13,047 nucleotides of DNA, from the NCBI GenBank assembly GCA_024278215.1, contig JAJRTR010000060.1, forward strand, positions 1-13,047, given 5' to 3'. The DNA comes from a bacterium (GTDB lineage: Bacteria > UBP15 > UBA6099 > JAJRTR01). The notes under the pieces were generated by a model that had not been told where the DNA came from, made no database searches, and was given only the letters and a program-made list of their open reading frames with translations. Numbering within the stretch: position 1 is the first letter of the stretch; each line of letters starts with the position of its first letter. This document shows, in pieces, positions 482-12,104 of the stretch. Both the position numbers and the translations under genes were made by a program.

Positions 482-1081
482 TCATCCGAGCACGGCGCGC
501 CACCTTTCAATATTTCTCAACTTTGTGCAGACGGCATCGGGTGTGATGCCGCGCCCGACGAGTAGTGCGGCTATCGTTTCTATGTCATGTTCACGCGACT
601 GAAGTTCCGGGGACACGACGCAGATTTTGAAACCGGCTTCCTTCAACATATCGCAATCCGGTTTTTCAAGTGGAAACTCCGTAAAGCAGTCGACCCACAC
701 CCACTGCGCGAGTCCCCGTGCCGCCATCACTGTTTCGATGCTTTCATACTCGGAATACCTTACCGCCTGCCGGGTTTGCTCTTCCGCACCGAGCCGCGCT
801 ATCATCGGGAACGACGAATCGAGAAAAAAGAAATTCTCGATACTGTACTCTTTGAGGAGTTCCAGCGTGCGGAATTCGATCCCCTCGCTTTTTACATTTA
901 TTATCATTGTGCCGTGCCTGTATTGTTCAAGATAGAGTGAAAAATCCACACCTCCAAGAAAAGGGTCATGGTTGAGAATCAGGCGTTTGCCGTAAGCCCT
1001 GAGGTCGAGTTCGACCCCGAACGACACCGGCACGTTTTTCAACTCATCAATTGTGTTTATCCTGTGAGCTATGAATTCCAT
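482..1081 (-). CDS. Glycerophosphodiester phosphodiesterase-like (PLC-like TIM barrel) protein
   Basis: This 199-residue protein begins almost directly with the first catalytic block of the family. His6-Arg7 (FIAHRI) corresponds to the usual HRG. Glu24 and Asp26 (GVELDLR) are the expected metal-binding pair, and His38-Asp39 (LNHDPF) the second catalytic His block. NVK (62-64) and the late DAVCTK (182-187) fit later barrel strands. It is shorter than most GDPD enzymes (roughly 230-300 residues), so the barrel may be minimal and the substrate different. No signal peptide or membrane segment is seen, so it is probably cytoplasmic. The ATG at 1081 overlaps the end of the upstream glycosyltransferase gene by 35 bp. 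There is no clear Shine-Dalgarno motif, which suggests translational coupling. Last gene of the four-gene operon. A role on phosphodiester-linked sugar or polyol intermediates is inferred. Confidence 0.72.
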   Translation of the reverse strand: MEFIAHRINTIDELKNVPVSFGVELDLRAYGKRLILNHDPFLGGVDFSLYLEQYRHGTMIINVKSEGIEFRTLELLKEYSIENFFFLDSSFPMIARLGAEEQTRQAVRYSEYESIETVMAARGLAQWVWVDCFTEFPLEKPDCDMLKEAGFKICVVSPELQSREHDIETIAALLVGRGITPDAVCTKLRNIERWRAVLG

Positions 1082-1781
1082 GTTTTATATCATGTTTCAA
1101 TCGGACACTGAAATCAAATGTTCTTTTGATGAATTTCCATTTTGCGGGCAGGCCGGTGTTCCATGTCGAATGTCCGTGCCGCCTGCCGGGGAAAACAACG
1201 GGAAACCTGATGACAGAAAGATGGAGTTTTCTGGCCATATAAAAAGCGTACAGGTCGAGAGAGAAATCATTGGGCGGGTTCTCCCATCTCGCGAAGAAAC
1301 TTCTGTGGAATACATTCGGCTGTGCATTTATATCCCACAGGGTTACACCGAGATAAATAGTTTCGAAAGCGCTCATTCCGAATGTGAATATGTTGTCGGC
1401 GAGAGGCCTGCCGCGCCGTGCTCCCTTTACGAAGATGTTCCGGGCATCGCCTCTCGATTCGATGATTTCGAGCGCTTTCAGCGTGTCGCCGGGGTCTGTC
1501 TGGAGATCTGCGTGAGTCCATGCGAGAAACTCACCTTCAGCCTCCTTTAAACCGGAGATTATTCCGAAACCATAGCCCCTGTTTTCCTTCAAATGTACGA
1601 TCTTGAGAAAAGGAAAGTAGGGGGCCAGGTGTGTGAGAACTTCGCCGCTGTCGTCCGTCGAGCCGTTTTCCACAATTATCATTTCGACGTCATTCCTCCG
1701 CAGGTTTTTCCCAAAGTCACTTATAAGCAACGGTATGTTTCGCGACTCATTGTAACATGGTATAACAATGGAAAGTTTCAC
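1047..1781 (-). CDS. Family 2 glycosyltransferase (GT-A fold, DPM1-like)
   Basis: A 244-residue GT2 enzyme. The N-terminus KLSIVIPCYNE is the classical start of the nucleotide-binding Rossmann half. VENGSTDDS (37-45) and ENRGYGFG (66-73) follow the usual spacing. AWTHADLQTDP (87-97) is the metal/nucleotide-diphosphate block, in the ADLQ form typical of polyprenyl-phosphate mannosyltransferase-like members. There are no C-terminal membrane helices, so it is either soluble or only peripherally membrane-associated. The start is GTG at 1781, with a GGAG motif 7 nt upstream that decides it. It begins 15 bp after the stop of the nucleotidyltransferase gene, so the two are almost surely co-transcribed. 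It is expected to transfer a nucleotide-activated sugar or polyol, possibly the one activated by the upstream gene, to a lipid or glycan acceptor. Donor and acceptor cannot be read from sequence. Confidence 0.88.
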   Translation of the reverse strand: MKLSIVIPCYNESRNIPLLISDFGKNLRRNDVEMIIVENGSTDDSGEVLTHLAPYFPFLKIVHLKENRGYGFGIISGLKEAEGEFLAWTHADLQTDPGDTLKALEIIESRGDARNIFVKGARRGRPLADNIFTFGMSAFETIYLGVTLWDINAQPNVFHRSFFARWENPPNDFSLDLYAFYMARKLHLSVIRFPVVFPGRRHGHSTWNTGLPAKWKFIKRTFDFSVRLKHDIKHGIHSSQDKHN

Positions 1782-1796
1782 CGGACGGCTCCGCTT

Positions 1797-3431
1797 CTAT
1801 TCGTATTTCTGAGAAAAACTCGAGTATTTCGCCGATAGATCGTCCACAGCGCCCGGAGAAACCAGTGGGTCCGTCTCGAGGCGGTAGGGGTGGCGGAGAC
1901 ACTTATGGAAATAACTCTGCCAGTATGTATATGTTTTCAAATCGTCCGGGGTGCCCCAGCACACATAGTGGTCGACGTCGAACACTTTCACATTATAGCC
2001 CATCCCGGCCAGTTCGCCGGCGAGACTGTCGATATAGAGTTCGCCGTTCACCCGGATGTTCTTAGACACAATGCGCTCATAGCCGTCGATGAAGAGACTT
2101 GCCGAGGAAAAATAAAAAGCGCCGATGAGCGCGTGATCTTCGAGCGGCTTGCCGGAGATCGGTTTTTTGACCGAAACGGTCGCCGCGCGGCCCGGTTCGG
2201 CAAGGACGGCCCAGCCATACATTCCGGGATCGCGCATCACACATGGATTCCCCCGGAACGTCCATATTACAACATCTGTGTCGCCGCTGCTGATAAGAGA
2301 CAAAAACTTTGCGTTGTTCCAGATCATACCATTATCACAGGCTGATATGAAGATCGGCTCATCGGGGGCTATCCCTTCCAGTCCCAGCCGGACTGTGGTC
2401 GCCTGGCCGTCTGTAACACTGTCCAGCACAACAGCCCGCGCGCCGGGATATTCATTATGTATTTCGCACGGCAGGTCGAATGATTCCCCGTGCTCACGCA
2501 AGTATACGAATACCACCCGATCCGCCCGGGGAGCGCAGGCAGCCGCCTGGAGAAACATCGGTTTCCCGCTTACGGCAACAAGTGGTTTCGGGATGTCGTA
2601 GTCAATAGCGAACCTTGCACCTTTCCCTGCGATCGGCATCAGCATCGTTCCCCGGATTTTCCCGCGCTTCCGCGGTTTGACAGCCTCCCGGAAGTAATTC
2701 GACCACGCGGTGTATTCCGCAATATCCCGTGGTGTTCCCCACTGCAGCATGTGCTGTATTTCGTAGACGGAGACCCTGAGCCCGGCGGCGGCGAGAAGGT
2801 TGTACACCATACTTACATAGTATTCACCTTTTACCTGCACATTCAGTTCCATCAAACGGGGGAAGAACCTGCGGACATATTCCCCTTTCCTGAAATAGTA
2901 TGTTCCATTCGATGCGAATTCACTCAACCTGTCGTTCGTGAAAGGTTTTTTCTCCTGTATCTCGATCATCCATTGCCGCTCATCGCGGATAAACGCATAG
3001 TTGGAGGGATGCAGCATGTGTGGATGGAATCCCCGATAGGCCGGGATTGCGCCGTCGGCATTTCTTCCGCGGGTGTGATCGAGGAAATCCCGGTAGTTCC
3101 AGAAAGTCCCGAAGTCGCAATAATTCACGATCACTTCATCGTCATGTACTAGGTCCGGGAACCGGCATACCGAATAGACGGGGCCTTTCTTGTGGGGAGG
3201 CGTTCCGACTATGACGCCGGCGGGAGCGATACGGCGCAGAACACTTTCCAGACCCGAATCCGCCAGGTGATCGCTGTTGCATATAAACAGGAAATCGGAT
3301 TCTCCCGGAAAGAGGTTCACCACATGCTCGATCATCGGCATGTCATCGACTTCGATCAATGGTTTGGGAACCATGCAGCCGGATTCGACAAAACGGCTTC
3401 CGGCTCCGGCCATCGGGATAATTATCTGCAT
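1797..3431 (-). CDS. Tandem two-domain sugar/polyol-phosphate nucleotidyltransferase
   Basis: The 544-residue protein holds two complete nucleotidyltransferase domains head to tail. Domain 1 (about 1-250) has GAGSRF (9-14), PKPLIEV (22-28), NYCDFGTFW (103-111) and QWGTPRDIAEYTAW (230-243). Domain 2 (about 261-510) repeats the same order: GKGARF (269-274), PKPLVAV (281-287), SACDNGMIW (363-371) and CWGTPDDLKTYTYW (491-504). Both keep the Gly-rich NTP-binding loop, the PKPL lysine and the metal-binding Asp of the C-D-x-G block (Asp106, Asp366), so both could be active. The reaction is expected to be NTP + sugar- or polyol-phosphate to NDP-derivative + PPi. A GAGGG motif lies 10 nt before the ATG at 3431, and the gene starts 17 bp after the aldolase stop. 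The domains have clearly diverged, so they may use different substrates or one may be regulatory. Confidence 0.88.
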   Translation of the reverse strand: MQIIIPMAGAGSRFVESGCMVPKPLIEVDDMPMIEHVVNLFPGESDFLFICNSDHLADSGLESVLRRIAPAGVIVGTPPHKKGPVYSVCRFPDLVHDDEVIVNYCDFGTFWNYRDFLDHTRGRNADGAIPAYRGFHPHMLHPSNYAFIRDERQWMIEIQEKKPFTNDRLSEFASNGTYYFRKGEYVRRFFPRLMELNVQVKGEYYVSMVYNLLAAAGLRVSVYEIQHMLQWGTPRDIAEYTAWSNYFREAVKPRKRGKIRGTMLMPIAGKGARFAIDYDIPKPLVAVSGKPMFLQAAACAPRADRVVFVYLREHGESFDLPCEIHNEYPGARAVVLDSVTDGQATTVRLGLEGIAPDEPIFISACDNGMIWNNAKFLSLISSGDTDVVIWTFRGNPCVMRDPGMYGWAVLAEPGRAATVSVKKPISGKPLEDHALIGAFYFSSASLFIDGYERIVSKNIRVNGELYIDSLAGELAGMGYNVKVFDVDHYVCWGTPDDLKTYTYWQSYFHKCLRHPYRLETDPLVSPGAVDDLSAKYSSFSQKYE

Positions 3432-3448
3432 CGGCGCTTGCCCTCATT

Positions 3449-4555
3449 TTATATATCGCGGCGGTGTTTCTCGGCTTCCCAACCGCCCAGATACATTATC
3501 TCATCTTCCCGCAGCGGCTTCATCTTCTGTCCTTTGCCCGCCAGAACAAGAAGATGAAATTTCAGAATGGACTCCATGTCGCGGACCGCCCGCATGTTCG
3601 TTGCGACAAAAAAAATGCGGCCTCGATAGATCACGGTCCGGGGGGGCTCGCCGTATTTATCAAGATAGGCTTTTAAAACATCATAGTCGTCGAGACTTTC
3701 AATATTTAAAGGCATGAAGCCGTTGTATACCACTGTGTCCGGACGAAAAGGCGGCTCGTATAGTAATTCCGGATGAGCCGCTGCAATGCGCAATAGGCCC
3801 GCGTCCGCCGCCTCACCGCAAACGTACTGTGTCCCCGATACTTCATTTACATACCCGGACACAGCATTTGTTATTCTGAATCTCTCCGTCGTTATTCCGG
3901 AAGCGGATTCAAGAGCGGTTGCGACATAGTCGGTGGTTTCAATCACATCCGAAATGTCTGATCCGGAAACGATAAGGCCGTGGTTCTCCAGAAAAACCAC
4001 AAGATGTTCGCCGGCTGCATCGACACCACGCTTTTTTATTTCCCTGATCACAGCATGTGCAAGCTCGATTCCGGGGGTATGATATTCCACGAGAACAGCG
4101 TCCGGGAAAGTTGCGCCCAGGACCTCCCTCCATCCGTCCCGCGAAGCTACCGCTGTAGCAGTCAGGGGATGCGTGTGCAGAACACATTTGCCGAGAACCG
4201 AGTGCATGAATGTTTCGATAGAGGAACGCAGCGAGCCGGACACAGCCACTCGCTCCAGAGCCGATACCGCGAATCGCTCGAAGTCTTTCCTGTCGGGATG
4301 TTTCGACAACATAAACTCGTCAAGCATTTCTATCAGAAGTTCGTAATGCACTTCGGCCAGTCCACAGCCGGGCGCAACATCACCAAGAGAAAAACCTGAC
4401 GCTGTGATAATCATAAGCCCCGCTTGCGTTTTCACGGAAGCATTGCCGCCGCCCGCCTGGACCAGGTCGAATCTTTCACCGGCGAATCTTGACATTCGCG
4501 TCAATTCATCAATAGCTGTTTCATTGATATTCTTCATTATGCTATTTGGCATCAC
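3449..4555 (-). CDS. Class II aldolase/adducin-family protein with C-terminal extension
   Basis: This 368-residue protein has a class II aldolase domain in about the first 220 residues. GGGNAS (35-40) is the phosphate-binding loop. SSIET (111-115) holds Glu114, the equivalent of the catalytic Glu of fuculose-phosphate aldolase. HTHP (127-130) supplies two zinc-ligand histidines, and NHG (191-193) contains His192, the third. All key residues are present, so aldolase or epimerase chemistry on a phosphorylated sugar is plausible. About 150 further residues (220-368) have no counterpart in short FucA-like enzymes and resemble nothing I can name firmly. The start is uncertain: GTG at 4555, ATG at 4552, or Met7 at 4537. 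A GGAG overlaps the first GTG, so it cannot serve that codon at normal spacing. First gene of the operon; it probably supplies the phosphorylated unit that the next gene activates (inference). Confidence 0.82.
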   Translation of the reverse strand: MMPNSIMKNINETAIDELTRMSRFAGERFDLVQAGGGNASVKTQAGLMIITASGFSLGDVAPGCGLAEVHYELLIEMLDEFMLSKHPDRKDFERFAVSALERVAVSGSLRSSIETFMHSVLGKCVLHTHPLTATAVASRDGWREVLGATFPDAVLVEYHTPGIELAHAVIREIKKRGVDAAGEHLVVFLENHGLIVSGSDISDVIETTDYVATALESASGITTERFRITNAVSGYVNEVSGTQYVCGEAADAGLLRIAAAHPELLYEPPFRPDTVVYNGFMPLNIESLDDYDVLKAYLDKYGEPPRTVIYRGRIFFVATNMRAVRDMESILKFHLLVLAGKGQKMKPLREDEIMYLGGWEAEKHRRDI

Positions 4556-4700: not shown

Positions 4701-5705
4701 TTGATGAACATATTTATATTAGTTATATCGTTTGTTCTGACGTTTACCGTAGCGTTTCTCTCTTCGAGGTCTTTAAACGTCCGTGCCCGAGCTGTAATAT
4801 TCGCCGTCTATTTTTTCTTGTATGTACTGTTTTTTCCGGTCTTCCTGTGGTTGCCGGTATATTTTACGGTCGATTTCTCGAAAAAAGTGGCATACCCCGA
4901 AGGATTCAAGGACGGAATATACTTCAATCGTGTCAATGAAAGCAGACTTCTCCCGATCAACAAGGATGGGCTGATCGCCGACATGGACTACAAGCCCGGC
5001 GCGTCAGGCAAGTGCCGGATAGTGATTATCGGAGACTCTTTCGCCGCAGGATATGGACTGAAGTTCAAGGATACTCTGGGGGCGTATCTCCAGAACGATC
5101 TTGGGAGCGGATACCAGGTGATAAATGGCGCTTTCTTCGGAACCAATACTGAAATGCAGGTTGATTACTTCTGCAACCACCTGCTCAAATATAAGCCTGA
5201 GATCGTGATCATACGGCACCGGATGGACGATGTGATGCCGCTGGCGGAGAAATATTATCTCGAACGGACAGGCGACGTTATCAGGAAATACGCACCGCAC
5301 TGGCCGCCCGCAATCAGGAACCGGTTTTTCAGATTCGAGATGCTTCTCATCCGTGAAAGGTTCTGGAGCTACTACCGCGCCAATACCCGGAAAGTCATCA
5401 AGGAAAACATGCTGGACTTTTTCGATCGACTGAACAACTGCACATCCGCGGAAGGCATACGTGTGTTGTTGATAAGCGATAAATGCCGCCGGGGATACGA
5501 GGCGGTCTGCGAGGCTGCGGGAGTGGAAGCCGCGAGTTTCGGCTGGGAAATATTAAATCCGCACGAGACGATCGATTTCTCCGCACCGGAAATGATTATC
5601 GCAGGGGACGGGCATCCGTCGGCACGTGCAAACCGTGTTCTCGCAGGCCTCATCCGCGATAAACTTCACAGCGATCACGCGAAGCCGGGGACCGGTCGCT
5701 GGTGA
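4701..5705 (+). CDS. Membrane-anchored SGNH-hydrolase-like protein
   Basis: A 334-residue protein with two hydrophobic N-terminal segments (about 4-22 and 30-56), so the catalytic part is tethered to the membrane. GDSF (111-114) is SGNH block I with the nucleophile Ser113. NGAFFGTNT (142-150) lies where the oxyanion Gly is expected. GDGHPS (302-307) supplies Asp303 and His305 of the triad. In place of the usual GxND block III there is IIRHRMDDV (170-178), which lacks the canonical Asn, so the oxyanion hole is unusual. Start: TTG at 4701 or the adjacent ATG at 4704, with GGAG 8 or 11 nt upstream. It is divergent from the glycan operon and convergent with the nitrogenase-like genes. Such proteins commonly add or remove acyl groups on exported polysaccharides; that role here is inferred. 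Confidence 0.8.
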   Translation: MMNIFILVISFVLTFTVAFLSSRSLNVRARAVIFAVYFFLYVLFFPVFLWLPVYFTVDFSKKVAYPEGFKDGIYFNRVNESRLLPINKDGLIADMDYKPGASGKCRIVIIGDSFAAGYGLKFKDTLGAYLQNDLGSGYQVINGAFFGTNTEMQVDYFCNHLLKYKPEIVIIRHRMDDVMPLAEKYYLERTGDVIRKYAPHWPPAIRNRFFRFEMLLIRERFWSYYRANTRKVIKENMLDFFDRLNNCTSAEGIRVLLISDKCRRGYEAVCEAAGVEAASFGWEILNPHETIDFSAPEMIIAGDGHPSARANRVLAGLIRDKLHSDHAKPGTGRW

Positions 5706-5829: not shown

Positions 5830-7137
5830 TTACCGGCTTCTGTTTTTGTCCGGCGGCGGGCGCATCAGTTCGTTCGAGACAGTATCTATGAAGTTGAGGG
5901 CACCGCTGAAGCCAAGGTAAGGCGAGTCGGACAGCGCGTGCCTGTGATAGTTCGTAAAGCCGAATGGCACGGAGACGCAGGTACCGGGAGGACTGTTGAT
6001 GTAGTTGCGCAGCATGTCTTCGGCAATGATAATATCGCAACCGTCGCGGAAAGCTTCCGAGGTGACTTGCACTATCTCGCCGGGCTTAAGATTGAAACGG
6101 CAGGGTATCCCGTCCCGAACAAGTGATTTAGGCAGGGGTGTCAGGTGTTTTTCCTGAGCTGTGGCGATCATCGCAAGCGGCCTGCAGCCCAACTCGATAA
6201 AGAAATCACGCACAGGTTCCATCATGTGGGGGTCGCCGCCGAAGAAAAAGCGTCGGCCAAGAAATATTTTGTTTATTATCCACTTCATGCCGGGCAGCAC
6301 ACGGGCGAGCTCGGACTCGGAATATGCAGCCGCCTGCTCTTCGAGTCCGAGGGCCGCGCCGATTTCTTCAAGCCAGCGGACAGTACCGTGAAAGCCGAAA
6401 GGGAGACCTGTTTCTATAAGTTTAGCGCCGGTTCGGGAGGCGATAATTCGCGCGGCTTCCCTGGCGTGTGGAAGAGATATGATAACACCGGCGCTCCCCG
6501 CCCGACGCAGATGGGAAAGCGGTCGTCCGCTGAGCCAGATCGATACGGGATCGAGCGACAACCCCCGCAGCATATTCTCGATTTGCGTGATATTTGATGT
6601 ATGGTCTTTCTCGTTTCTATCCATCATATAACCTATGACGGCAACTCGCGCCGGTCCCGGGTCACCGTTCAGGTCCAGGTTCGATGCAAGTGATTTCATT
6701 GCCTGCGCATAACCGTCGAGCCAGTCCGAACTCAGTGACAGAGACGGCACTTCGAAAATCGGTTTCGACAGTTTCCTGCCCATGTCTCTCACAATCGAAT
6801 CGTACTGAGTGGCGGTTATCGTAGCCATGGGCATAGAGACATACATTAGCCCGCCGGCTTCCGGCAGCGCACAGGTTTCGTGGATGATTCTCCGTATTTT
6901 CTCCGACCTGTCGTGAACTATGCTTGTCACGTCCAGATTCCGGGGTCTTACTATTCTGTCCGGGCCGGAACAATTCAGCAGGGTCGAGTTGAGATCATGC
7001 CGTCCGTAAATAAATTCTGCCTTGAATGTGGCACAGTCCGGACCGTCCACATACAGGTACAGGTCGGGGATTGCGTTCACCGCAAGATACAGGCCGATGA
7101 TATATGAGTAGTTTATCGGTAGAGCCGCTTCTTCCAT
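5830..7137 (-). CDS. Nitrogenase component 1-like subunit (NifK/BchB-like)
   Basis: This 435-residue protein has the nitrogenase component 1 fold. YVDGPDCATF (29-38) matches the GPxGC block with Cys35. GFHGTVRWLEEIGAALG (248-264) matches the component 1 segment that leads into a conserved helix. RRFFFGGDPHMMEPVRDFF (295-313) matches the K-R-V-x-I-x-G-D-P block. The C-terminus PFGFTNYHRH...PYLGFSGAL (391-414) matches the GFP..DR/H...P..GY.G signature. Of the three cysteines NifK gives to the P-cluster, only Cys35 is in place. The N-terminal position reads ALPIN, and the TTC position reads VSMPM (100-104). It should pair with the NifD-like half of the fusion encoded just upstream (68-bp gap) as the second half of a reductase core. 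The ATG at 7137 has only a weak ribosome binding site, and an in-frame stop lies 16 codons earlier. Substrate unknown. Confidence 0.88.
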   Translation of the reverse strand: MEEAALPINYSYIIGLYLAVNAIPDLYLYVDGPDCATFKAEFIYGRHDLNSTLLNCSGPDRIVRPRNLDVTSIVHDRSEKIRRIIHETCALPEAGGLMYVSMPMATITATQYDSIVRDMGRKLSKPIFEVPSLSLSSDWLDGYAQAMKSLASNLDLNGDPGPARVAVIGYMMDRNEKDHTSNITQIENMLRGLSLDPVSIWLSGRPLSHLRRAGSAGVIISLPHAREAARIIASRTGAKLIETGLPFGFHGTVRWLEEIGAALGLEEQAAAYSESELARVLPGMKWIINKIFLGRRFFFGGDPHMMEPVRDFFIELGCRPLAMIATAQEKHLTPLPKSLVRDGIPCRFNLKPGEIVQVTSEAFRDGCDIIIAEDMLRNYINSPPGTCVSVPFGFTNYHRHALSDSPYLGFSGALNFIDTVSNELMRPPPDKNRSR

Positions 7138-7205: not shown

Positions 7206-9845
7206 TTACTGCAGGAACTTCCTGTACCGGCTGAAGAAAGGAACAGAGCAGGCGGCGACAAGTCTTCTTAGTGTGCGTACAGCCCCTGTGAATCCCATCT
7301 CGAAGAATTGCAGGGAGAATTGTTCTTTTCCGGCACGCACGATACGCTGATCGAAATAGAAATCCGAATAGAAACAACTTGCCGGAGAATCGAGCATGAG
7401 CTTTTCGAGTTCCGCGGGAGTCGAGAAGGTTCCGAGGTCTTTTTCCATAATTTTTCCGCCAAGGCGGGGACTCCCGGCCCGCGCGGGGTGATAAGTCAGG
7501 TACTGAGTCCCGAAGCCGATCTCTTCGAGCATTTCCATAATCGGCACTCCCCCGGCAAGCCGCGCGTTTGAAATCATTTTCATGCCGGCGCCCTCAAACA
7601 CAAACCCTAAAGTATATTTACGTGCTTCCTCCGCCAGGCGGTTCCACTCATCGAGCTGCTCTTTTTCGATTTTTTCGATCGCGTCGAGTTTCTTGTCGGG
7701 GACACCAAGTTCCCCGGCTACGGTCTCCAGCCATTCTCGTGTGCCGCGCATTCCGTAGGGCGCGGGCGGCATGATGGTTTTCACGGGGACATCGCCGAAT
7801 ATCTGATTGTATATCCCGGTATATGTGTCGTCGGGATAAAAAACGGTGAGCGCGGCTGCTCGATAATTATCAAATATGCACGGGTCTATTTTCGGGATGA
7901 AAATCTCGTTCACAACAATGCCCAGTACGCCAAGAAGTGAAATGATTTCATCGAGTCCTTTTTTTTCAGGAAAGCCGATCAGGTTGACTGCAAGCGGGTT
8001 GACTTCTTTTTCGGCGAAACCGGTTTCTTTTTTGAGACTGATAAAGAATTCATGATGCGGATTGATGCTTATCGAATTCTCAGGCCCCGCGTAGAACAGG
8101 GGCACGGGACACTTTTCCCTTGCCGCCGCAATGAGGGAAGGCACATCCTCGCCATAGACCATCGGAACACAGGTATTGTTGAAAACAAGAATCCTGCTGC
8201 TGCCGATTTCGTCAATTGCATCCGATATCAGGGCCGAGAGTTTCTCGCCCGAACCCATAATGACATCCATCTCCCTGATATCTGTCGAGTATGTCTTCGA
8301 GCCGCTGTGAAACATCTCCGTATCCGGCGACATAGCAGGCGAAAGCCAGGGGTAGTTATAGGGGATAAACTCATCGGACTTGATCTGCGGTGTTGCGAAA
8401 GCGCACTCGACATCCGTGTGCATGATCTGGGTTACGGGGATGTCGTAGACAAGCACCTGCCCCCTGTTGCGAGAAAACTGCCAGTACGCGAAAAAGCGTG
8501 CCCATTTATCGGCGCAAGAGCCCTCTATGGAAACTACGTCCGGCCCGTTGCCTTTCGAGTCGTTCCCGGTCGTTTCCAGACATTTTCTGCGTATCGTTTC
8601 GAGCTCGTCGAGCCGGAAATCACCGAGTCTGTGCGATACCCTCTGGAGTAGCCTGACAAAAGGCGCGGTGATTCTGCCTTCATCAAGAAAAATATCGAAG
8701 TGCGCAGCGGCGATATCAGGGCTCGCGCTCCTGTCCGCCGGTCTCAGAGAAACCCTGGCCTGACCTATCAACGGCCCGGAAAAACCTATCGCCACACCGC
8801 CCCCGGATATTTCATCGACATAATCAACAGCGAAGCCCTGACCTGCAACGCCCGTTCCCCGCAGGCCCAGCAACAGAGAAAAAGCGTCATTCAGTTTTTC
8901 TTCTTCCCGCCGCAGATGCCCGACCGGCGTTGCGGCGACCATTGCCCCGGCAGTTTCGCCGGTCGTTCGCGGCTTCCTGAGGTTTCGCAGGCTCTGAAGA
9001 TCATCAGGATCAATAAGATATTTCATGAAAGCCTTCTGATCCAGCGGTGACGGCAGCGGTATTTCAGACACATCAAGTCCGAGAAGTTTTTCCGCGACAG
9101 CAGCCACCTGCAAGGAGAACTCACTGGACGGGTCATATTCAAACGCCGTGAGTCCATGGTGCCTGGCAAGAACAGGCGTTTCCGATATCGGTAGACTTCC
9201 CAGCGTCCGCGCTTCTATGAGTGAGACAAACTCACCGGACTTCAGCTTCGGACCGCCGCCGCCCCTTTCGTTCACCACAACTCCCGCCAGCGCAACTCCA
9301 TTCACACTGTATCTCAAAACCGCTTTTGCTATATTATTCGCCGCATAGTACGACATCTCGTCCTCGGCTATCACAATGACTACTTTATTACCGAAGCCCT
9401 TCCGCAGTGGTGCCGCGAATCCACCGCAGACTACATCGCCCAGAACATCAAAAACGACAACGTCGAATTTCCCACTCTCCATGACATTCCACTTCTCGAG
9501 ATATTCCATCACCCTGGCTATACCTCTGCCGCCGCAGCCGATGCCCGCCTCCGGGCCTCCGGCCTCGATACACTTGATCCCCAGACGGCCCTTGTTGAAC
9601 ACCGACCCCGCCTCACGGTCATTGTCCGCGTTGGATATCCAACTCATTACAGTATTCAGATCATCCATGTTCTCCAGCAGGATCAGTGTCGAGTCGCTCT
9701 TGGGATCGCATCCAACATGCAGCACCTTCAGGCCCTTCGTGGCATAATACGCACTGAGATTGGCGGCCAGTGTCGATTTGCCCACTCCGCCTTTCCCGAA
9801 AACTACTATGTGGTTCGGTGCTTTTTTCCCCACAGCTACTCGCAT
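7206..9845 (-). CDS. Fused NifH-like Fe protein and nitrogenase component 1-like (NifD-like) protein
   Basis: One 879-residue frame contains two proteins that are normally separate. Residues 11-286 are a NifH/BchL-type ATPase: P-loop GKGGVGKST (17-25), VGCDPKSDST (44-53), GIGCGGRG with cluster ligand Cys104 and Arg107 (the ADP-ribosylation Arg of NifH), DVLGDVVCGGF with Cys140, and EYDP (236-239). Residues 287-440 form a linker or extra domain I cannot assign. Residues 441-879 are component 1-like: Cys444, Cys481, VIMGSGEKLSALI (528-540), VFNNTCVPMVYGEDV with Cys559 (554-568), and APYGMRGTREWLETV (695-709). The positions matching FeMo-cofactor ligands Cys275 and His442 of NifD appear to be non-ligand residues. 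An in-frame TGA directly precedes the ATG at 9845, so this is the earliest start; GGAA lies 3 nt upstream. The predicted role is ATP-driven low-potential reduction of an unknown substrate with the NifK-like partner. Confidence 0.92.
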   Translation of the reverse strand: MRVAVGKKAPNHIVVFGKGGVGKSTLAANLSAYYATKGLKVLHVGCDPKSDSTLILLENMDDLNTVMSWISNADNDREAGSVFNKGRLGIKCIEAGGPEAGIGCGGRGIARVMEYLEKWNVMESGKFDVVVFDVLGDVVCGGFAAPLRKGFGNKVVIVIAEDEMSYYAANNIAKAVLRYSVNGVALAGVVVNERGGGGPKLKSGEFVSLIEARTLGSLPISETPVLARHHGLTAFEYDPSSEFSLQVAAVAEKLLGLDVSEIPLPSPLDQKAFMKYLIDPDDLQSLRNLRKPRTTGETAGAMVAATPVGHLRREEEKLNDAFSLLLGLRGTGVAGQGFAVDYVDEISGGGVAIGFSGPLIGQARVSLRPADRSASPDIAAAHFDIFLDEGRITAPFVRLLQRVSHRLGDFRLDELETIRRKCLETTGNDSKGNGPDVVSIEGSCADKWARFFAYWQFSRNRGQVLVYDIPVTQIMHTDVECAFATPQIKSDEFIPYNYPWLSPAMSPDTEMFHSGSKTYSTDIREMDVIMGSGEKLSALISDAIDEIGSSRILVFNNTCVPMVYGEDVPSLIAAAREKCPVPLFYAGPENSISINPHHEFFISLKKETGFAEKEVNPLAVNLIGFPEKKGLDEIISLLGVLGIVVNEIFIPKIDPCIFDNYRAAALTVFYPDDTYTGIYNQIFGDVPVKTIMPPAPYGMRGTREWLETVAGELGVPDKKLDAIEKIEKEQLDEWNRLAEEARKYTLGFVFEGAGMKMISNARLAGGVPIMEMLEEIGFGTQYLTYHPARAGSPRLGGKIMEKDLGTFSTPAELEKLMLDSPASCFYSDFYFDQRIVRAGKEQFSLQFFEMGFTGAVRTLRRLVAACSVPFFSRYRKFLQ

Positions 9846-10099: not shown

Positions 10100-12046
10100 T
10101 CACAGTCCGAACTTTTCAGAAAGATACTCACTAAAAAAATCCGTGTTCCATACGTCCATTTCGCGTGGCTTGAACCCTTCAGCGCCGACCGGGTGCAGTT
10201 CGTCTGTCCCATAGAACTCCGCATAGTTCTTCCTGATTCCGAAGCAACAGCCGTTAAGCCCACAGTCGGCGCAGGCATCAGTTTTTATCATGTCCCGGCT
10301 TCTTCCCGCCGTCTCCAGAACCCGCGCGTCCGGGAAATACACGGGGTTTCCATCGAGAATACACAGAGGGATGCCGCACATGGCTGTAAGGCCGGAGAAT
10401 GGAACGCGGAGTTCGTAGCATAAGTCGAGCGCTTTTGTCAGAGGTTTTTTCAACTCGCTCATTCTTGGGATCAACCCCCTGAATATCATCGCACCGTATA
10501 TGGGCGCGGCCACGGAAAATACAATTTGTGTCCTGTCGAGCGCGGCGGCAGTGAACTCGACGAATTCGGAAAGCGCCGTGTAATTGAACGAATTTATCAC
10601 ATGGCTGATCAAGACAAAAACGCCGTTTCTCCTGAGATTGGCAATTCCCTTCACCGTTTTATCGAAGGAGCCGGGAAGCCCGGTCAGCATATCAGATACT
10701 TCCGGTTTATGCGAGTGGAGTGAAACAAGGGCAAAATCGAGGCCGGCCTCCGCCAGAGCCTGCACCCTATCTTCCCGATGCAAAAGAACCGCATTCGTCT
10801 GGAGTCCGACTTTCCTGATATTCCCGGTCTTAAGCATCTTCACATATTCGACCAGGTTTGCGTTCAGGGTGGGTTCTCCTCCTGAAATACATACGGAACC
10901 AACTTCGTAATGGCGGAGTTCGTTGATGTATGATTTTACTTTCGATATATCGGGGTTTTTGAAGTATGGCTCAACCCAGCAGAAAAGGCAGCGCTGATTG
11001 CATCTGTAATTTATCCTGAGCAGTACTTCCTCAACGTATTTCTTTCCTTCTTTTTCAATAATTGCGGGCAGCACAAACTCGTTCTCTATGCCTGCAAGGT
11101 CTCGGGGCGAGTCCGGTTCAGCCGGCCACTGTTTCAAAACCGATCCTGTGAATTCCGGGGTCGGCACAACGAGCGCCCGGTCATCATGGTTGTCGAATTG
11201 AGGATGGATTCCCCGGCAGAAAAACCTCAGAAAACAGTCTGCACACAATCCGGGTCTGCGCGGAACATTCTGCCCTGTTTCTCCTGTTATCGGCGGAAAA
11301 ACGAAAAGTGAACGGAAGGTATCCATCGACCTGAACAAACATGGGGCGGGACAGTCGCCCGGCTTGAAGTAAAGGCCCGCACCCGCCTTCACGGCCTCAT
11401 CAAGCGTCTGCTGCAATATCGCTTCCATTTCTGCAATCGTCGCACAATCCTCACTGTTCACCAACTCCAGGAAAATGCTTCCCACATGCGGAAAACTATT
11501 GCCGATGAACTGCACGTGCTGATCCAGATCCATTATCGTTTGTTTCAGGAGTGGTATGCGGATTGCTGTTTCAACACCGGCGGCCGCGGTGGACTCGATA
11601 CCTTTGCGAGCCAGTTCCCAGCCTCCCGTGTATCGGGTCGCGGCATCTGAAACATCGGGGCTGCGGCTGACGTGCAGAAACATAATGTGAGTCAGACCCG
11701 AGGCAAGGATTCTTTCGGCATACGCAGGGTAGGACATCATCAATCCGTTGGTATCAAGGCGGATGGTGCTGAAGCCGAGCCTGACCGCCTGCCTTATGTA
11801 TTCGGCCAGGTGCCGACTGATCGTCGGTTCGCCGCCTGTGAACACCACGGAGTCGGTAGTCTCTCTCAACTCGCACAACCTTTGCAATATAATTTCCGGC
11901 ACTATGTCTGTGGGTTCACACAGCACTTTCTTCCCGCAGAAAAAACAGTTCTGATTGCATTCAGTACATACCGTGATGATTCCCATGCCGAGCATAATAA
12001 AACCTCTGGATATATTACCCGTTTGTGATCTATCCGTTTTTTTCAT
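10100..12046 (-). CDS. Tandem (two-module) radical SAM protein with auxiliary-cluster tails
   Basis: Numbering from the ATG at 12046 (648 residues). Module 1 has the radical SAM motif C30-x3-C34-x2-C37 (CNQNCFFC) and the SAM-binding GGEP (71-74), then a cysteine-rich tail C232, C236, C268, C271, C277. Module 2 repeats the plan: C349-x3-C353-x2-C356 (CNQRCLFC), GGEP (389-392), and a tail C557, C562, C592, C595, C600, C601. The tails look like SPASM/Twitch-type auxiliary Fe-S binding regions, so the chain could carry four clusters. The start is chosen because AGGA lies 6 nt before ATG 12046. The frame extends to a TTG at 12070, and ATG 11995, with AGAGG 7 nt upstream, is also possible. It lies 254 bp upstream of the nitrogenase-like fusion on the same strand. 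Cofactor maturation or peptide/small-molecule modification for that system is inferred. It is not NifB by architecture. Confidence 0.9.
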   Translation of the reverse strand: MKKTDRSQTGNISRGFIMLGMGIITVCTECNQNCFFCGKKVLCEPTDIVPEIILQRLCELRETTDSVVFTGGEPTISRHLAEYIRQAVRLGFSTIRLDTNGLMMSYPAYAERILASGLTHIMFLHVSRSPDVSDAATRYTGGWELARKGIESTAAAGVETAIRIPLLKQTIMDLDQHVQFIGNSFPHVGSIFLELVNSEDCATIAEMEAILQQTLDEAVKAGAGLYFKPGDCPAPCLFRSMDTFRSLFVFPPITGETGQNVPRRPGLCADCFLRFFCRGIHPQFDNHDDRALVVPTPEFTGSVLKQWPAEPDSPRDLAGIENEFVLPAIIEKEGKKYVEEVLLRINYRCNQRCLFCWVEPYFKNPDISKVKSYINELRHYEVGSVCISGGEPTLNANLVEYVKMLKTGNIRKVGLQTNAVLLHREDRVQALAEAGLDFALVSLHSHKPEVSDMLTGLPGSFDKTVKGIANLRRNGVFVLISHVINSFNYTALSEFVEFTAAALDRTQIVFSVAAPIYGAMIFRGLIPRMSELKKPLTKALDLCYELRVPFSGLTAMCGIPLCILDGNPVYFPDARVLETAGRSRDMIKTDACADCGLNGCCFGIRKNYAEFYGTDELHPVGAEGFKPREMDVWNTDFFSEYLSEKFGL

Positions 12047-12104
12047 CGACGATCCTGACACCGGGAGCAAAAAGATTCACTCTTTATATCTGATTCCCGG
12101 ATGA

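Follow-up and report, generated by a model that had tools for sequence, protein, structure and literature searches.

The association of the Fe protein with component 1 and its dissociation at each electron are a central idea of the nitrogenase mechanism. The Fe proteins NifH and BchL work as dimers, and the N subunit of DPOR carries three Cys residues. Nitrogenase paralogs of the Elusimicrobiota known as Group VI reportedly co-occur with radical SAM proteins (an observation ascribed to Meheust et al., 2020). Isr, Mar and Nfa, assigned to Group IV, each comprise a B-H-D-K set that includes a radical SAM protein (PMC11423573); Mar and Isr act on organic sulfur substrates (PMC11423573; PMC12552129), and MarH is a separate homodimer (PMC12552129). 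The Group VI paralogs are cited in two papers as putatively involved in tetrapyrrole cofactor biosynthesis (PMC9391474; PMC11257099).

Fusions of a Fe protein to a component 1 subunit are already known as a kind, and have been noticed in print but set aside rather than studied. Dos Santos et al. (2012) mentioned nifH-nifE-like fusions followed by nifN-like genes, with data not shown, and excluded them from their tree (PMC3464626); a 'fused nifH/nifE' was noted in Ca. M. intestinalis by Borrel et al. (2014; PMC4153887); and a 2024 survey of archaeal gene fusions contains a NifH-NifD/E fusion in Methanomassiliicoccales (archaeal cluster 443; PMC11237513). Among nitrogenase-like genes, fusion is thus on record from Archaea, Firmicutes and Deltaproteobacteria (PMC3464626, PMC4153887, PMC11237513), and as far as the literature we found goes these proteins are uncharacterised. 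That literature makes no mention of a folded insert domain in long-linker members, of an H-H-D protein, of a fusion between H and a radical SAM protein, of repeated fusion and fission, or of members lacking tetrapyrrole synthesis.

The window analysed here is a stretch of 13,047 bases that makes up an entire contig of a 4.5 Mb, 95% complete genome (Table 1). Its first-pass annotation had proposed that a NifH-like Fe protein and component 1 share one polypeptide, and this was borne out: the minus-strand frame translates into 879 residues without a stop, and the product matches PF00142 (Fer4_NifH; residues 12-277, E = 2.4e-67) and PF00148 (Oxidored_nitro; residues 515-864, E = 9.5e-18), both above the curated cut-offs. 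The contig belongs to a draft MAG, in which an assembly, frameshift or annotation artefact could join two genes. Nevertheless, in-frame codon statistics gave a positive coding signal in all parts of 7206-9845, including positions 8500-9000, where a frameshift or assembly junction had been named as a possible flaw and no sign of one was seen. A search of residues 240-520 for an internal ribosome site plus start found none. Full-length matches spanning both halves, for which the annotation had proposed a search, occur on many independent contigs; given these independent homologs, the architecture cannot stem from an assembly junction. Since fused homologs are conserved across so many independent assemblies, an artefact is refuted for the family and its likelihood here is negligible; the Fe protein-component 1 fusion is confirmed as real. 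Nor are the homologs always two separate genes, the other outcome that would have spoken against the proposal, as they form a mixture of fused and split forms.

Table 1. Features of the fused gene and its neighbours; coordinates refer to the window.
Feature	Position	Strand	Basis
Whole fused gene H-M-D, 879 aa	7206..9845	(-)	uninterrupted frame, Pfam, homologs
Fe protein (NifH-like) domain, residues 12-277	9015..9812	(-)	PF00142 E 2.4e-67; fold match; invariant residues
P-loop GKGGVGKST	residues 17-25 of fused protein	(-)	sequence
Fe-protein cluster ligand C104	9534-9536	(-)	sequence, conservation
Fe-protein cluster ligand C140	9426-9428	(-)	sequence, conservation
Switch II of H domain	residues D133-D137	(-)	sequence
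Middle region M, residues 278-437: flexible stretch and probable small alpha/beta domain	8535..9014	(-)	prediction
Component-1 (NifD/E-like) domain, residues 438-879 (start about 438)	7209..8534	(-)	PF00148 at 515-864, conservation
D-domain C481	8403-8405	(-)	conservation
D-domain C559	8169-8171	(-)	conservation
NifK/N-like partner subunit, 435 aa	5830..7137	(-)	PF00148 E 1.7e-39; downstream of fused gene
K-subunit C35 (single conserved Cys)	7033-7035	(-)	conservation
Protein with two radical SAM domains, 656 aa, 'B'-type companion upstream	10100..12070	(-)	PF04055, two stretches

With a Fe protein and an alpha-type component 1 in a single ORF, followed by a beta-type gene, the locus resembles the fusions of Dos Santos et al. 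(PMC3464626), but differs from them in its long middle region, in the tandem radical SAM gene alongside and in falling into a separate clade. It likewise recalls the Group IV sets MarHDK and IsrBHDK, which combine a radical SAM protein, a Fe protein and two component-1 subunits, the order here being B-(H-M-D)-K. The radical SAM, fused and K genes look like one unit, because the next gene past K (4701-5705) lies on the opposite strand. At related loci with enough contig, a K-like gene likewise follows the fused gene immediately, and radical SAM genes are present at many of them.

All hallmarks of the Fe protein family (P-loop, switch residues, two cluster Cys, fold) are found in the H domain. 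The motifs singled out in the first-pass annotation, namely the P-loop, C104, C140 and switch II, are present as described, both in the window protein and in a set of 39 fused proteins, across which G17-T25, C46, D51, C104, D133, D137, C140, N170 and N192 are invariant. Arg107, also listed there, does occur in the window protein, but only 21 of the 39 have Arg at this position. In the predicted full-length model, the fold of H aligns with 6q93_C (VIA-align Z 33.9, rmsd 2.9 over 271 residues); against the NCBIfam nifH equivalog the domain scores 224 bits, not reaching the cut-off of 394. Because those residues are invariant in the 39 proteins, the domain appears to be under selection as a working Fe protein, and going by its residues the fused H is apparently a fully functional one. 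A degenerate or regulatory leftover, with component 1 served by another donor, would fit the long branch on which the window's H lies in Fe-protein trees (1.24-1.51 changes per column). We nonetheless consider such a leftover very improbable, as the catalytic and ligand residues are intact in this and all other fused proteins and some genomes with the fused gene have no other strong Fe protein match.

The component-1 half was assigned from Pfam and from sequence matches to MarD and NifE, since the list of structural matches is filled by those to H. It had been called NifD-like; a component-1 domain it is, but profile and structure-database sequence matches make it equally NifE- or MarD-like. 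Its nearest solved relatives by sequence are MarD (9d9u/9fmg, the top match) and NifE, and NifE is also its best NCBIfam component-1 model, at 36 bits, far under the cut-off of 505. Scores against the nitrogenase equivalogs nifD and nifK in NCBIfam fall far under the cut-offs as well. The three Cys residues that had been highlighted in this half fared unequally: C481 is kept in 38/39 fused proteins and C559 in 39/39, but Cys444 is unconserved, the position being mostly Ala or Gly. Across the window's clade (31 fused proteins), H476, E480, C481, C559 and D567 are conserved. Strong conservation of Cys is limited to C481 and C559 and that of His to H476, near C481; past C559 towards the C terminus, neither residue type is conserved. 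In the K subunits (n = 24), C35, D31, H47 and D48 are conserved, the single Cys being kept in 23/24. The K subunit of the window itself (5830-7137) deviates from its relatives at the strongly conserved residues 60, 111, 188, 391 and 419.

The Mo, V and Fe nitrogenases (NifHDK), by comparison, have six P-cluster Cys, three per subunit, versus two in D and one in K here, and nothing like their FeMo-co ligand pair Cys275/His442 is seen in D across the 31 proteins of the clade. As judged from residue patterns, this argues against a nitrogenase-type P-cluster and against a FeMo-cofactor site. The two-Cys pattern of D is that of NflD/CfbD, in which the alpha residues are C88 and C154 (PMC3464626). 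The system is akin to CfbCD and DPOR (BchLNB) in the simple Fe-S ligand set of its component 1 and in its probable organic substrate, but in these the Fe protein is separate, and CfbD has no K homolog (PMC11423573). Mar, whose D subunit ranks first among solved structures matched by sequence to the window's D, differs in its separate homodimeric H; the present system has two conserved Cys in D and one in K, and no ligands of the FeMo-co type.

Between H and D, the middle region of the window protein gave no Pfam match above noise and no match to PDB sequences, and it was modelled at low confidence (pLDDT below 50 at residues 294-393 and 401-467). Over the 39 fused proteins, the H-to-D tether falls mostly into two size sets, of 48-91 and 138-174 residues, with a single protein (L075) at 254. 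The long-tether set has a conserved middle domain. In the version of bacterium L076 it is predicted as a compact alpha-beta5-alpha2 fold, and the model, built with 17 relatives, has a pLDDT of about 91 over its first 60 residues; the middle region of the window aligns with it weakly, at 15% identity. Among solved structures the best match to the middle domain was of the AMPK regulatory/KA1 type, but with Z 4.2 it is too weak to mean anything, and this identification was rejected. By eye, the middle region of the Myxococcota and Bradymonadales relatives seems to consist of two copies of a related unit (L073:6812-7594, L087:3010-3915, L074:2816-3721, L075:6120-7000). The AlphaFold model of the full-length protein has a mean pLDDT of 70.8 and a pTM of 0.55; at that pTM it supports no geometry, and the orientation of H to D was set aside.

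Searches for relatives returned no match in the six further genomes of the small phylum to which the window belongs, in a single-protein scan of 84,980 species or in viral contigs. A scan with a Fe-protein pattern did find them: among the matches listed, fused genes occur in Elusimicrobiota (L069, L071, L072), Bradymonadales (L075), bacterium L076, Clostridiales (L095) and Thermoplasmata/Methanomassiliicoccaceae (L100, L143), and both Pfam domains were confirmed on each of these ORFs. The same listed matches include split relatives, for instance in Myxococcota; in L073, L074 and L087, H has a gene of its own, located ahead of an ORF that spans the middle region and D. With a profile of the fused proteins, H and D matches fell into a single open frame in 29/294 sampled Elusimicrobiota genomes, some with two or three copies. 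In the nine genomes of the class to which L073 belongs, the two halves, whenever both could be detected, sit in separate genes. ORFs of 760-957 aa that match NifD in the phylum of genome G029 gave no Fe protein match, and were taken as NifEN-type fusions and discarded.

In the Fe-protein tree, the window protein groups with the Elusimicrobiota/Myxococcota set, apart from the fusions of Clostridiales and Thermoplasmata. A single clade of all fused H domains was rejected by the AU test (p-AU = 5.9e-51), and so was a single clade of the fused members within the window's wider set (p-AU = 1.8e-7); two ORFs that reach a locus or contig end and were labelled split (L166, L130) were left out of the test. 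The fused architecture is therefore shared without forming a single clade, indicating repeated fusion and fission. Further arrangements accompany it. In a Myxococcota MAG (RA.bin121), one frame (L097:2465-5881) encodes H-H-D, with two tandem, non-identical H domains that both have the P-loop and the second cluster motif. In genome G531, a Fe protein is fused to a radical SAM domain (L177:403-2397, minus strand; PF00142 E = 4.2e-82, PF04055 E = 7.3e-19) and adjoined by a K-like gene, and in G625 an intact fused H-D gene is immediately preceded by a free H gene, likewise intact (L198:2559-6249). Elusimicrobia RBG_16_66_12 carries two tandem HMD-K units (L072:2192-9546) with one member of each split across frames, which suggests duplication and decay, or sequencing error.

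We assign a probability of about 0.6 to the reading in which the window encodes a nitrogenase-like, ATP-dependent B-H-D-K reductase whose reductase and catalytic subunit are fused, with a tethered donor and an organic substrate, not N2. D and K would assemble into the usual component-1 heterotetramer, in which a bridging [4Fe-4S] cluster would be coordinated by C481 and C559 from D, by C35 from K and by a non-Cys ligand, the FeMo-cofactor site being absent. The H domains must pair, because each gives half of the Fe-protein cluster ligands and ATP sites. With one H per D, each component-1 tetramer has two H domains, which suffices for a single donor pair. The simplest way would be for both H domains within a (HMD-K)2 complex to come together by means of their long tethers and engage the DK halves one at a time. 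H would then bind and let go inside one complex, replacing diffusion. The tether would raise the local concentration of the donor, and may guard against cross-talk with the cell's other Fe proteins. In the H-H-D protein, where a single D has a complete Fe-protein pair attached, there would be one pair per half. Electrons would pass to an organic substrate, not N2, in a pathway common with the radical SAM enzyme; the fusion of H to a radical SAM protein and the radical SAM genes at many loci tie that enzyme to the same pathway.

A bolder version, tentative at best, is that the Fe protein never leaves: the tethered H (in one case a covalent H-H) would shuttle between undocked and docked states within the complex; the radical SAM enzyme may in addition draw electrons from this Fe protein, as the H-radical SAM fusion suggests.

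A counterpoint to a tethered donor comes from the window's own genome, where contig C196 carries a second, unfused system (L068:1050-6617), with K and D on one strand and H on the other strand, followed by radical SAM. The free Fe protein of this contig, which has Leu at the Arg107 position, could serve the fused system instead. Alternatively, the tethered H might pair in trans, as a heterodimer with a free Fe protein or with the HMD of another complex, so that the fusion acts as a docking anchor and the donor is partly shared; the free H on C196, the free H gene upstream of the fused gene in G625 and the non-identical H domains of L097 would all suit such pairing. The C196 protein, however, has its own DK pair and shares only about 41% identity with the tethered domain. 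In addition, the fused gene is the only strong PF00142 match (>200 bits) in genomes G359, G363 and G364, so that, if these assemblies are complete enough, the fused system need not borrow another Fe protein. We thus regard pairing in trans as unlikely.

As to what the tethered-donor reductase acts on, two other proposals deserve weighing. One is that it reduces a tetrapyrrole, the role proposed for Group VI in the papers cited above, with the window's clade putatively being Group VI; most of its relatives belong to the same phylum as those Elusimicrobiota paralogs. The two-Cys pattern of D is akin to CfbD, HemC is present in the window genome, and several short-linker genomes have TP_methylase-family genes at a distance of up to about 5 kb from the fused one. 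HemB was not found in the window genome, perhaps owing to a gap; with HemC there, the idea that this genome lacks tetrapyrrole synthesis was dropped. By contrast, HemB and HemC are both missing from ten long-linker Elusimicrobiota genomes that encode the fused protein (G358, G451, G410, G584, G519, G642, G632, G605, G479, G630), for which MAG gaps or salvage are possible explanations. For G569, nothing beyond a fragmentary match to HemC was seen. Two other genomes within this long-linker set, G359 and G475, do possess both genes. The ten genomes without HemB and HemC, set beside the two with both, indicate that the system is not tied to endogenous tetrapyrrole synthesis. Members without that synthesis weaken the tetrapyrrole proposal, salvage notwithstanding, and we hold it as a possibility that is more doubtful than not.

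The other proposal is a scaffold for cofactor assembly in the manner of NifEN, on which HMD-K would mature a cluster or cofactor precursor made by the radical SAM protein. The radical SAM neighbour is reminiscent of NifB, and NifE is both the best component-1 model for D and among its solved-structure matches, but the score of 36 against a cut-off of 505 bits is low, the window has no separate catalytic DK pair for a scaffold to supply, and Mar and Isr, which share the BHDK set, act on organic sulfur substrates (PMC11423573; PMC12552129). A scaffold function is accordingly quite unlikely in our view, and the reductase with a tethered donor and an organic substrate remains the reading we prefer.

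In the characterised systems that the first-pass annotation had named, the Fe protein is indeed separate, and the mechanistic question it raised stands. Nature has produced such fusions in two or more separate lineages, and with their close split relatives they offer matched pairs with which to ask whether dissociation from the complex is needed. The same pairs probe how a donor pair forms with one H per catalytic half, and whether a tether speeds or insulates the delivery of electrons. That several members lack tetrapyrrole synthesis also questions the sole function proposed in the literature we found.

Some further genes were seen around these systems. An SGNH-like gene adjoins the unfused system on C196, as one (4701-5705) does that of the window. 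Near the fused system of several long-linker Elusimicrobiota there is a peptidase U32-family gene (L187:7554-8504; L069, L179, L195). Beyond the SGNH-like gene, the minus strand of the window at 482-4555 holds possible glycerophosphodiesterase-like, glycosyltransferase 2, double nucleotidyltransferase and class II aldolase-like genes, which have the appearance of surface polysaccharide synthesis.
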